A DNA stretch of 40,104 nucleotides from Methylococcales bacterium (GTDB taxonomy: Bacteria; Pseudomonadota; Gammaproteobacteria; Methylococcales; Methylomonadaceae). Of the stretch, positions 15,374-39,406 are shown piece by piece; positions within the stretch are counted from its first letter, which is position 1, and each line of letters begins with the position of its first letter. Below the pieces are notes generated by a model that saw only the letters and a list, made by a program, of their open reading frames with translations, did no database searches and had not been told where the DNA came from. The translations under genes were made by a program, and so were the position numbers. The DNA lies in contig JAPLRW010000123.1 in the NCBI GenBank assembly GCA_026398935.1, positions 1 through 40,104 on the forward strand, given 5' to 3'.

Positions 15374-16522
15374 ATGGCTAAAGAAAAATTTCAACGTTCA
15401 AAACCCCACGTAAACGTCGGTACTATTGGTCACGTCGATCATGGAAAAACAACGTTAACGGCTGCTTTAACAAAAGTAATGGCTGAATTGCAGGGTGGAG
15501 AAGTTAAAGCCTTTGATCAGATTGATAATGCACCTGAAGAGCGTGCGCGTGGTATAACTATTTCAACATCGCATGTTGAGTATGAATCTGCTAATCGCCA
15601 TTATGCACATGTTGATTGTCCAGGACATGCTGACTATGTAAAAAACATGATTACTGGTGCAGCGCAGATGGATGGCGCTATTCTCGTGTGTTCCGCAGCG
15701 GATGGCCCGATGCCGCAAACAAGAGAGCATATTTTATTATCCAGACAGGTTGGTGTTCCTTACATTGTTGTCTTTTTAAATAAAGCTGACATGGTCGATG
15801 ATGCTGAGTTAATTGAGCTCGTCGAAATGGAAATCAGAGAATTGCTGGATATGTATGAGTTCCCTGGTGACGATACACCTATCATTGTAGGTTCAGCATT
15901 AAAAGCATTGGAAGGTGATACTAGCGAAATTGGTGTTCCTTCAGTAGTCAGATTAGTAGAAGCGCTTGATTCTTATATACCATTACCTGAAAGAGCGGTT
16001 GACCTGCCTTTCTTGATGCCGATTGAAGACGTATTCTCAATTTCTGGTCGTGGTACGGTGGTAACAGGTCGTATCGAACGTGGTGTTGTAAAAGTTGGGC
16101 AAGAGATAGAAATTGTCGGCGTCAAACCAACTGTCACAACAACCTGTACGGGTGTTGAAATGTTTCGTAAGTTGCTTGATCAAGGTCAGGCGGGAGATAA
16201 CGTTGGTATCCTGCTAAGAGGCACAAAAAGAGAAGATGTAGAGCGTGGTCAGGTTCTTGCTCATAAAGGTGCTATTAAACCACATACTCATTTTAAAGCA
16301 GAGATTTACGTTTTATCAAAAGAAGAGGGTGGTCGTCATACGCCATTCTTCACAAACTACCGTCCACAATTTTATTTTAGAACAACCGACGTTACTGGTG
16401 CTGTTGAATTGCCAGAAGGCGTAGAAATGGTTATGCCTGGAGATAACGTGCCAGTACAAATAAAATTAATTGCGCCTATAGCAATGGATGAAGGTTTGCG
16501 CTTTGCTTCAATCATTGAGTAA
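15374..16522 (+). CDS. tuf: Elongation factor Tu, copy 2, with a 14-residue internal deletion near the C-terminus
   Basis: EF-Tu delivers aminoacyl-tRNA to the ribosomal A site. The GTPase domain is intact: [31 protein letters not shown] and SALK are all present, and domains 2 and 3 follow normally. The product is 382 aa instead of about 396, because the end reads GLRFASIIE where copy 1 reads [23 protein letters not shown]. The missing 42 bp would sit at 16506/16507, between TTGC repeats. The lost segment is the near-invariant last strand of domain 3, just after the residue aligned with E. coli A375. The frame is kept. The gene may be defective, altered or misassembled. rpsJ follows after only 5 bp. 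Confidence 0.95.
16363..16506 (+). repeat. Duplicated tuf segment, copy B
   Basis: These 144 bases are identical to 1-144. The similarity stops at the 42-bp deletion and resumes for the final 16 bases of the gene (16507-16522 against 187-202) with one difference (C at 16513, T at 193). Confidence 0.9.
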
Positions 16523-36372: not shown

Positions 36373-36871
36373 AACCTATTTAAACGTATTGGGCGTGTTG
36401 TTGCTGTTAGCAGGCTTTGCTGTTAATGCGGCGATTGATGTTTATCAATTTAACAGTGACAGTGATCGAGATCGTTTTCGTCAGTTGACGACAGAATTAC
36501 GCTGTCCGAAATGCCAAAATCAAAATATCGCCGATTCTAATGCGCCTATTGCACAAGATTTACGCACCAAAATTCAGGCAATGCTGAGCGAAAAAAAAAG
36601 TGATCAACAAATTGTTGATTATATGATCGAGCGTTACGGTGATTTTGTGCTGTATCAGCCGCGCGTGGACAGTAAAACCTATATATTATGGTTTGGTCCG
36701 GCGGTGTTGCTACTGCTAGGTATTATTGTCGTGGTGTTTATCAGTCGCCGTAATACCGCTAAAGTCAATGCTGATGCTGTAGCCGATACCTTGGCTACCC
36801 ATGCGCTTGATGCTGAGCAGCAAAAACAAATTGAAACTCTCTTAAACGGTACAGGAAAGCATTCATCATGA
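36362..36871 (+). CDS. ccmH: Cytochrome c-type biogenesis protein CcmH (CcmL-type)
   Basis: CcmH presents reduced apocytochrome to the CcmF lyase. The product is 169 aa, the short single-domain form. It has a signal peptide (about 1-24), the LRCPKCQNQNIADSNA redox motif with C48 and C51, and one C-terminal membrane span (about 108-128). The TPR part that is fused to CcmH in E. coli is a separate gene here, ccmI, directly downstream and overlapping by 4 bp. Confidence 0.97.
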   Translation: MLNKTYLNVLGVLLLLAGFAVNAAIDVYQFNSDSDRDRFRQLTTELRCPKCQNQNIADSNAPIAQDLRTKIQAMLSEKKSDQQIVDYMIERYGDFVLYQPRVDSKTYILWFGPAVLLLLGIIVVVFISRRNTAKVNADAVADTLATHALDAEQQKQIETLLNGTGKHSS

Positions 36872-38640
36872 CCAATTTTTGGATAGCTGTCGTTGGAATG
36901 CTTATGGGTGTCGCCGGATTTATATTTTGGCCGATCGTTGCCGCGCAGGGACAGTCTGGTAATTCAGATGATCTTCCTGTGCCTGTTTCGCCTAAAAAAG
37001 GTAAGCGTGGCGTGGTGGCCAAAGGCCATGCGTCTGCTCCGCTGTTGACCGAGCAAGTTGCTAGCCACAGACAGCGTAATATTGAAATTTTTAAAGAGCG
37101 CTTGAGTGAACTTGAAGCTGAAAAAGCACAGGGTACGCTGGATGCAGTAGCGTTTGAGCAGCTCAAAGTAGAGCTTGAAAAATCGTTGTTAAATGATGTT
37201 GCGATTGATACGCGTTTGCCTGTGGCAGAGTCCGTGGTGATTGGTACTAAGCATTGGCTGATGGGCGTATTGATGCTGCTGGCGGTTATTATTTGGAGTA
37301 TTGGTTTGTACGCAGTCTTGGGGCGTAGTGATGATTATACGGTGCGTCTTGCTATGCAGGCACAAGGCACGTTAAACAATCGCATGGATGACTCGCAACA
37401 GGCGTCGGCGGCTGATCAAAAAGCGCCCGATCTTAGCAAAGCCATTGAGCTGCTGAAAGAAAAGGTTAAACAAGATCCTAAAAATATCGGTAAGTGGTTT
37501 TTATTGGCGAACAGCTATGCTGCGACGCAGCAATATGCCAAGGCAGCAGAAATGTTTTCAGCCATTGAGAAAATTGTACCAAAAGACTCGCCTGACTATG
37601 CCTCGATAAAAGGCTCGTACGCACAAGCGCTGTATTTAGCGGCTGATGAAAAGGTAACCGAGCCTGTAAAGGCTGCTATTGCAGCCGCTTTGGCGATTGA
37701 TCCAAAAGAGCCTAATGCGTTGGTGTTGAAGGGTGTTGAAGCCTATGAGCAAGACGCCTATAAACAAGCCATTTCCTTTTGGGAGCAGGCCAAAGTCAAA
37801 GCCAATGCTAATTTAATTGCGCAATTCATCGATCCATCCATTGCGGCGGCACAAGAAAAATTAGGCATCACGCCATCCACGATTATCGGTAATGCTGCAA
37901 CGGTTGCAAAAGACGTGGAGGCTAAAATTCAGGTGACGGTGGATATTGCGCCGGAATTAAAGGCAAAAGTCAGTAGCGATCAAGTTGTCTTTGTATTTGC
38001 CCGTCCAGCGGGGAGTAAAATGCCTTTGGCGGCTGAGCGATTGACCGTTAAAGATCTGCCTGCAACCATTGTATTGGACGACACAAAAGCGGCCATGCCT
38101 ACTGCAACGTTATCTTCTGTTGCGCAAGTGGATATTACCGCTAGAATTTCCCTCTCTGGGCAAGCTATTCCGCAGGATGGTGATTTATTTGCAACGCAAG
38201 AAAAAGTTAACGTGAGTGGCGCGGCGCCGGTTAGTTTAGTGATTAATCAGGTAGTGGGTACGGCTACTTCAGTGTCTGTGCCAGTATTGGCATCAGCATC
38301 TTTGCACTTAACGGTTGATATTGCGCCAGAATTAAAAGCCAAGGTGAATCCTGATCAGCAGGTCTTTATTTTCGCTAAACCTCCCGGCGGAAAAATGCCT
38401 TTGGCGGTTGCGCGCTTAACGGTTAAAGATTTGCCGGCGGATGTTGTGCTGGATGACAGTAAAGCGGCAATGCCTACTGCCACACTGTCTTCTGTCGATG
38501 TGGTGGATATTACCGCTAGAGTCTCGCTGTCAGGTCAAGCCATTGCGCAATCGGGTGATTTATTTGCCAGCAAAGAGCAAGTGGTTATTAGGCAAGTACA
38601 GCAACCGATTGCGTTGTTAATTAATCAGGTGATGCCTTAG
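36868..38640 (+). CDS. ccmI: Cytochrome c-type biogenesis protein CcmI with duplicated C-terminal domain
   Basis: CcmI binds the C-terminus of apocytochrome c and brings it to the CcmF/H ligation complex. The product is 590 aa, longer than the roughly 400 aa common in this family. Its parts are TM1 (about 3-25), a cytoplasmic coiled region, TM2 (130-150), TPR-like repeats (about 190-335), and then the C-terminal beta-rich domain twice: residues 356-464 and 481-590. By hand count 71 of the first 92 positions are identical between copies. The frame is continuous. It is the last gene of the operon. Confidence 0.95.
   Translation: MTNFWIAVVGMLMGVAGFIFWPIVAAQGQSGNSDDLPVPVSPKKGKRGVVAKGHASAPLLTEQVASHRQRNIEIFKERLSELEAEKAQGTLDAVAFEQLKVELEKSLLNDVAIDTRLPVAESVVIGTKHWLMGVLMLLAVIIWSIGLYAVLGRSDDYTVRLAMQAQGTLNNRMDDSQQASAADQKAPDLSKAIELLKEKVKQDPKNIGKWFLLANSYAATQQYAKAAEMFSAIEKIVPKDSPDYASIKGSYAQALYLAADEKVTEPVKAAIAAALAIDPKEPNALVLKGVEAYEQDAYKQAISFWEQAKVKANANLIAQFIDPSIAAAQEKLGITPSTIIGNAATVAKDVEAKIQVTVDIAPELKAKVSSDQVVFVFARPAGSKMPLAAERLTVKDLPATIVLDDTKAAMPTATLSSVAQVDITARISLSGQAIPQDGDLFATQEKVNVSGAAPVSLVINQVVGTATSVSVPVLASASLHLTVDIAPELKAKVNPDQQVFIFAKPPGGKMPLAVARLTVKDLPADVVLDDSKAAMPTATLSSVDVVDITARVSLSGQAIAQSGDLFASKEQVVIRQVQQPIALLINQVMP
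37933..38259 (+). repeat. CcmI C-terminal domain, copy 1
   Basis: Encodes residues 356-464 of CcmI, from VTVDIAPELKAKV to INQVVG. It resembles 38308-38637 closely in DNA and protein, with runs such as KAAMPTATLSSV and RLTVKDLPA unchanged. The two copies are joined by about 16 residues rich in Ser, Thr, Val and Ala. Confidence 0.9.
38308..38637 (+). repeat. CcmI C-terminal domain, copy 2
   Basis: Encodes residues 481-590, from LTVDIAPELKAKV to INQVMP at the C-terminus. Silent differences from copy 1 are frequent, so the duplication is not very recent or has drifted at the third base while the protein was conserved. Confidence 0.9.
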
Positions 38641-38680
38641 AGCGGGATTTTGCGCTACTACATAGAAAAGTGTCTTGATT

Positions 38681-38689
38681 TGATATAAT
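38681..38689 (+). promoter_or_regulatory. Extended -10 candidate after ccmI
   Basis: TGATATAAT is a full extended -10 (TG, one base, TATAAT). The -35 position at 17 bp (CATAGA) is poor, which an extended -10 can tolerate. It could drive the lipoprotein gene, although the repeat element lies between. A second TATAAT at 38761 has TTGCTT at 19 bp. Confidence 0.3.
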
Positions 38690-38777
38690 CGCTGCTTGTG
38701 ATGTGTAAGTTGTACTTAATGGATGGCGCATAATGTTGCTTACACGCACAAACGGTTCTTTATAATGCGCTGGCTTC

Positions 38778-38938
38778 TTAAAAGTACTTATTCACCTCCC
38801 CCTTTGACTTGTGCCCTTTAGGGTAAAAAGGGGGATTGAGGGGGATTGAGGGAGATTTTATCTAATAAATCTCCCTTTATGCCCTTAGGGTACTAACCCC
38901 TCTTTTTCTAAGAGGGGGGGCTGAATAATTACTCTTAA
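38778..38938. mobile_element. MITE-like palindromic element with terminal inverted repeats
   Basis: The ends TTAAAAGTACTTATTCA (38778-38794) and TGAATAATTACTCTTAA (38922-38938) are inverted repeats matching at 15 of 17 positions. Inside are CCCCCTTT/AAAGGGGG (38798-38805, 38827-38834), a tandem 10-bp repeat GGGGGATTGA twice (38830-38849), GGGAGATTT/AAATCTCCC (38850-38858, 38867-38875) and CCCCTCTT/AAGAGGGG (38897-38904, 38910-38917). It has no coding capacity. Its size (161 bp) and architecture fit a non-autonomous MITE or a REP-like element; the family is not recognised. Confidence 0.55.
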
Positions 38939-38983
38939 AGCGATAAAGAAAAATTCCTGGGTATGCTGTCATTACATTGTCAT

Positions 38984-39406
38984 ATGAAAAATATACTATA
39001 TAAAAATTTGCTGTTAATTATTTTCATTAGCGGGTTGTTAGTGTTAGTCGGCTGTACTGGCGTAGCAAATATGGGTAAAACCAGTGCTGAGTTGCTACAG
39101 GAGCGTGTGGAATTGCGCTGGCAGGCGCTTATTAAAAAAGATTGGAACGCAGCGTATCAGTTTGAATTGCCCGCGTATCGCCAAACACATGCTGTTAGTC
39201 AGTATCAAGCGAAGTTTGGCTCGACATTGCAGTGGAAGTCAATGCATATTGATGCTGTAGTGGTTAATGCCGAAACGGATACTGCTGATGTGAGATTAAC
39301 GCTTGTTTACAGCTTTTCGATGCCGGGTGTTGGTTTAACGGAAGGCAATAGCCAAATAAATGAGCGTTGGATGCGACAGGATAATGAGTGGTGGATGGTT
39401 GATTAA
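38984..39406 (+). CDS. Predicted small lipoprotein, function unknown
   Basis: From ATG 38984 the product is 140 aa with a typical lipoprotein signal: a basic start MKNILYK, a hydrophobic core, and lipobox LVGC with the lipidated Cys at residue 24. The frame also opens at ATG 38963, adding seven residues (MLSLHCH), which would make a worse signal peptide; neither start has a good ribosome binding site. The mature part starts helical (ELLQERVELRWQALIKKDW) and continues beta-rich to the Trp-rich end NEWWMVD, a pattern seen in NTF2/SnoaL-like folds. That fold is a guess. Confidence 0.75.
   Translation: MKNILYKNLLLIIFISGLLVLVGCTGVANMGKTSAELLQERVELRWQALIKKDWNAAYQFELPAYRQTHAVSQYQAKFGSTLQWKSMHIDAVVVNAETDTADVRLTLVYSFSMPGVGLTEGNSQINERWMRQDNEWWMVD

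Follow-up and report, generated by a model that had tools for sequence, protein, structure and literature searches.

Between ccmI and a lipoprotein gene of this Methylococcales bacterium lies a palindromic segment that the initial annotation took for a MITE-like element able to act as a terminator, a mobile element or both. We asked which of these readings holds for the segment and its surroundings in the window (the whole 40,104-nucleotide stretch analysed here), in the rest of the source genome and in related genomes. The element at 38784–38932 proves to be a real mobile element of an ordinary kind, an IS66-related MITE.

Borders, ends and setting of the element

The element proper begins with GTAC at 38784 and finishes with TTAC at 38932, giving a length of 149 bp; the 161 bp first proposed were too wide by about 6 bp on each side. 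The 17-bp inverted repeat behind that estimate is present, with 15 of 17 positions matching (TTAAAAGTACTTATTCA at 38778–38794 against TGAATAATTACTCTTAA at 38922–38938), and is overlong because the target duplication looks half-palindromic, so that the outer 6 bp of each arm are duplication bases. In a repeat search the arms, target bases included, reach inward to 26 nt at 85%, and at the extreme ends of the element itself the terminal inverted repeats agree at 10 of 11 bp (GTACTTATTCA / GTAATTATTCA). The duplication is 8 bp long, not the TTAA or TA that had been suggested. There is no ORF of at least 60 aa within 38784–38932, as befits a short MITE lacking a transposase gene, and with no ORF the 149 bp have no capacity to encode DDE_Tnp_IS66, as an autonomous IS66-family insertion sequence would. 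The element stands 143 bp past ccmI and 30 bp ahead of the ORF at 38963, and the two TATAAT strings lie upstream of it, at 38684–38689 and 38761–38766. Its parts are as follows.

38776–38783, no strand: left copy of the target site duplication, TCTTAAAA, 7/8 identical to the right copy
38784–38932, + strand: MITE with IS66-type ends, 149 bp, delimited from copies and 8-bp duplications
38784–38801, + strand: left end GTACTTATTCACCTCCCC, equal to seven IS66 ends of relatives at 12–14 of 18 positions
38796–38834, + strand: hairpin 1, CTCCCCCTTT ... AAAAAGGGGG, from repeat search and fold prediction
about 38813–38824, + strand: micro-hairpin GCCCTTTAGGGT in the loop of hairpin 1, missing at that place in most copies
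38830–38849, + strand: GGGGGATTGA twice in tandem, from sequence and repeat search, a single unit in most copies
38849–38876, + strand: hairpin 2, AGGGAGATTT ... AAATCTCCCT, from repeat search and fold prediction
38877–38894, + strand: central micro-hairpin module around TTATGCCCTTAGGGTACT, whose presence differs among copies
38897–38917, + strand: hairpin 3, CCCCTCTT ... AAGAGGGG, from sequence and fold prediction
38915–38932, − strand: right end, read inward, GTAATTATTCAGCCCCCC, equal to seven IS66 ends of relatives at 15–17 of 18 positions
38933–38940, no strand: right copy of the target site duplication, TCTTAAAG, 7/8 identical to the left copy

The three internal hairpins reported earlier are thus predicted here as well, together with a micro-hairpin nested in the loop of hairpin 1, and the reported tandem repeat is found with its GGGGGATTGA units at 38830–38839 and 38840–38849.

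The source genome (G000) is a 3.6-Mb draft assembly of 304 contigs. It carries a gene for pMMO/AMO subunit A (PF02461), which points to a methane oxidiser (or ammonia oxidiser). Two further features of the window were observed. The CcmI protein of 590 aa (36868–38640) has the Ig_CycH domain twice, as two Pfam stretches, and its gene contains a 272-nt DNA repeat (73%, spacing 375). Positions 1–144 are identical to 16363–16506, the 3' part of a gene at 15374–16522 that, from its sequence, we take to be elongation-factor-Tu-like (tuf); because of this identity the contig probably begins in a second tuf copy, at an assembly break.

Copies, target duplications and empty sites

The search for further copies recommended with the initial annotation recovered 77 dispersed matching pieces of the element in its own genome, where the end pattern has 49 matches against 0 for the reversed control. 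From these we assembled a complete-copy set (n = 17, 48–149 bp), requiring both ends to lie within two substitutions of the pattern with C/G runs behind them, and omitting degenerate or incomplete copies such as L014, L016 and L029. The 8-bp flanks match at six or more of eight positions in all 17 (7 are exact, 7 differ at one position and 3 at two), against 2 of 272 cross-paired flanks; at length 8 the flanks have a mean identity of 0.90, whereas each of the remaining lengths between 2 and 12 gives 0.15–0.31. No flanking sequence is common to the copies. When the flanks of each of the 17 are joined, 11 sites have no ORF of at least 60 codons over the junction and the ORFs at the other 6 do not exceed 124 codons, so on these reading frames the insertions look mainly intergenic. 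A plasmid or phage origin was rejected, as the plasmid and phage collections searched gave no match in either.

The family extends well beyond this genome. Of 201 genomes from the same taxonomic family, 44 (in 14 of 29 genera) contain related elements, and four genomes of genus g10 have 110–189 matches to the end pattern each (0–1 for the control); two further genomes have 9 (G169) and 0 (G042). Of 29 loci inspected in relatives (L077–L105), two ends could be paired in 23, and matching 8-bp flanks were found at 16 of these; the remaining 7 fall below six matching bases, one of them (L083) through an end placement that is off by one.

Comparison with empty sites, the second check that had been proposed, succeeded for two copies in relatives and not for the copy in the window. 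The 144-bp element of G012 (L092), together with one 8-bp copy, is precisely what G054 is missing, and G108 lacks the element found in G093 (L088). One copy in the source genome (L003) is missing from the congener G002, at a junction too diverged for base-by-base reading. At the window locus, relatives of the lipoprotein gene in three congeners have no ccmI within the flanks compared. Insertion, 8-bp duplication, multi-copy spread across the family and common ends are shown, and the mobile-element half of the original proposal is borne out by the many copies, their duplications, the relatives' empty sites and an autonomous IS66 relative that has these ends too. The outcome named beforehand as a refutation, that neither the genome nor its relatives would hold a further copy, did not occur.

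The probable link to IS66 and competing explanations

That autonomous relative is a 1676-bp IS66 element in G012 (L106:2640–4315), which encodes a transposase of 527 aa (PF03050, E = 1.6e-40) between ends GTAACTATTCAGACCCC and has an exact 8-bp duplication, TAATTGTT, at its borders. Among 29 IS66 transposase loci, several of which are fragments, nine have MITE-like ends on both sides and an exact 8-bp duplication (L109, L110, L111, L113, L114, L115, L117, L118 and L122). The text of PMC11946415 that describes IS66 gives 8-bp repeats and ends beginning GTAAGCG; in the window element the right end GTAATTATTCAG has the GTAA start, and the left end, GTAC, departs from it at base 4. Relatives of the G012 transposase are present in 32 of the 201 family genomes at E ≤ 1e-20. 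The MITE and the transposase occur together in 18 of 201 genomes where 7 would be expected (Fisher p = 2.9e-6, assuming one and the same 201-genome set for both searches). Two loci of G054 have other transposase genes between MITE-type ends (L107:2514–4370, DDE_Tnp_1_6/DUF772; L108:747–2570, DDE_Tnp_1); we rejected these as helpers, and they are probably different insertion sequences that jumped into such elements.

Autonomous IS66 elements with these ends were found in relatives only. A PF03050 search of the source genome gave no match (4 of 14 control genomes matched), a protein search of the 304-contig draft with the IS66 transposase gave none at E ≤ 10, and no helper transposase was thus seen in the same genome; the sole trace in the genus is a decayed fragment with three stops in G003.

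On the strength of the common ends, the equal duplication length and the co-occurrence, we consider it highly probable that the element is a non-autonomous MITE mobilised by an IS66-family transposase in trans. Such a transposase would act on the non-autonomous sequence at 38784–38932 by recognising its ends (GTAnnTATTCA followed by a C run); the element would insert at a staggered cut, and host repair would yield the 8-bp duplication. The helper appears to have been lost from the source genome, and the window copy probably dates from an old insertion and is now stranded, as the helper is undetectable and the duplication has decayed by one base.

A different transposase that also produces 8-bp duplications could have moved the MITE, its likeness to IS66 ends reflecting partial convergence or cross-recognition. 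This would fit a source genome without an IS66 transposase, a left end that agrees with IS66 ends at just 12–14 of 18 positions, and the 26 of 44 MITE-bearing genomes that have no IS66 transposase at E ≤ 1e-20; we nevertheless regard it as very unlikely, since IS66 elements across the taxonomic family have the same end signature and duplication length and their transposase is positively associated with the MITE. That the segment is instead an ordinary conserved intergenic region or a ccmI terminator, with no insertion involved, is hardly credible: it is palindromic and lies downstream of ccmI, yet this reading is contradicted by the dispersed copies, the duplications flanking all 17 complete copies of the source genome and the relatives' empty sites, and a scan of 38500–39100 on both strands found no intrinsic-terminator-like site, so that the terminator role once suggested lacks support.

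There is somewhat more to be said for an element mobile by origin that now serves as a regulatory hairpin, an attenuator or RNA-stability element in the lipoprotein mRNA leader, which we still judge unlikely. The element sits 17 bp past a promoter-like site (38739–38766) and just ahead of the ORF at 38963, and its predicted fold is highly stable: −73.5 as RNA against a mean of −51.3 in 200 dinucleotide shuffles (z = −5.35) and z = −6.08 as DNA against 200 such shuffles, with no shuffle as good in either case. Promoter-like sites are nevertheless near chance (3, against a mean of 1.6 in shuffles), terminator-like sites number zero, and the copies have no common flanks and vary in distance and orientation to neighbouring ORFs. 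Selection on RNA structure was set aside as an explanation: when 14 compact copies are aligned, a compensatory change is seen in 1 of the 40 consensus pairs, and many pairs are invariant and thus uninformative either way. The lack of an intrinsic terminator and the near-absence of compensatory changes offer no support for a regulatory role. Membership of a known RNA family was likewise rejected, the two weak matches (mir-365, 23.8 of 62 bits; RalA, 19.3 of 170 bits) lying so far under the gathering scores that we take them as chance. With mobilisation in trans by IS66 as the preferred reading, the hairpins are part of a palindromic core that spans nearly the whole element, and any effect on the lipoprotein gene would be incidental unless shown otherwise.

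Several known systems resemble the element in part. IS66-family insertion sequences, such as that of G012 with its 1676 bp and single transposase, have ends GTAAnTATTCAGACCCC and an 8-bp target duplication as it does, whereas the window element lacks a transposase gene and consists of a hairpin-rich body of 149 bp. In the portion of PMC6382973 that describes it, MITEAba12 is alike in its size (111–114 bp), in ends common with a resident IS, in target duplications and in its presence in many genomes of one family; it differs in being linked to ISAba12, with 9-bp duplications and other ends, where the window element has 8 bp and IS66-type ends. MITEPsy1, as presented in the relevant section of PMC3189936, is also a small non-autonomous element credited to an IS in trans, and its transposition has been seen; its origin is of the IS5 type (ISPsy2) and its duplications are 4 nt. 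A MITE in Thiomargarita hupL is described with a 10-bp repeat in the corresponding part of PMC4853749. Among the open-licence papers listed in literature searches, none is on an IS66-related MITE in this lineage.

The hairpin core and its micro-hairpins

The oddest feature of the element is the micro-hairpin GCCCTTTAGGGT, which some copies have and others lack, at three places. Counting GCCCTTTAGGGT or GCCCTTTGGGTA, 4 of the 17 complete own copies have two, 7 have one and 6 have none, with three positions in use and the micro-hairpin occurring in either orientation. An independently mobile micro-hairpin was considered and rejected: its central version TGCCCTTWRGGTA has 12 exact genomic matches, 10 within MITE pieces and 2 elsewhere (contigs C30 and C239). 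One-mismatch matches (37, against 10 for the reversed control) were discarded.

The core itself is not tied to one kind of end. A second end type, AGGATATGGTCAAAAATAAC ... GTTATTTTTAGCGAAATCCT, surrounds the same hairpin core in the source genome, with three complete cases (L005 in contig C133, L013 in C108 and L018 in C206). Elsewhere in the phylum, half-cores such as CCTCCCCCTTTGAAAAAGGGGGATTGAGGGGGATTT are matched in 13 of 398 genomes, the source genome included, and are shared with dispersed G/C-stem hairpin repeats; among the stretches inspected, most copies of these repeats have no GTAA-type ends, whereas a copy in G458 has them. We know of no published name for these repeats. As the half-cores elsewhere mostly lack IS66-type ends and a second end type occurs in the source genome, the hairpin core may be older than its present ends.

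Individual loci add further variants. L139 starts like the AGGATATGGTCAAAAATAAC ... GTTATTTTTAGCGAAATCCT type and finishes more like the IS66 type. At L160 and L172 (G500, from another family of the class) the left half-core is repeated within one contig at a spacing of about 144 bp. In one copy of the source genome (L055, G000:C237:7053–7127) a run of GGGGGATTGA units extends to the contig end, which suggests expansion of this 10-bp repeat and, with it, a break in the assembly.

A bolder reading, possible although we hold it as doubtful, is that the element serves as a scaffold for a micro-hairpin module of about 18 bp (GCCCTTTAGGGT / GCCCTTTGGGTA), which repeatedly arises, vanishes or flips at three sites (the left loop, the right loop and the spacer preceding hairpin 3), and that the palindromic core is older and wider in distribution than the IS66 ends, having been joined in the same genome to at least one further type of end. 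If this were true, small DNA insertions, deletions or inversions would take place in the hairpin loops of MITEs, giving such elements a way to grow.

For annotation, the consequence is that hairpins of this kind should not be taken for terminators or regulatory RNAs. For the lineage, probably one of methane oxidisers, a large MITE family is now delimited and tied to IS66, and the presence or absence of its micro-hairpins at fixed loop positions provides a natural data set on the gain and loss of palindrome segments.
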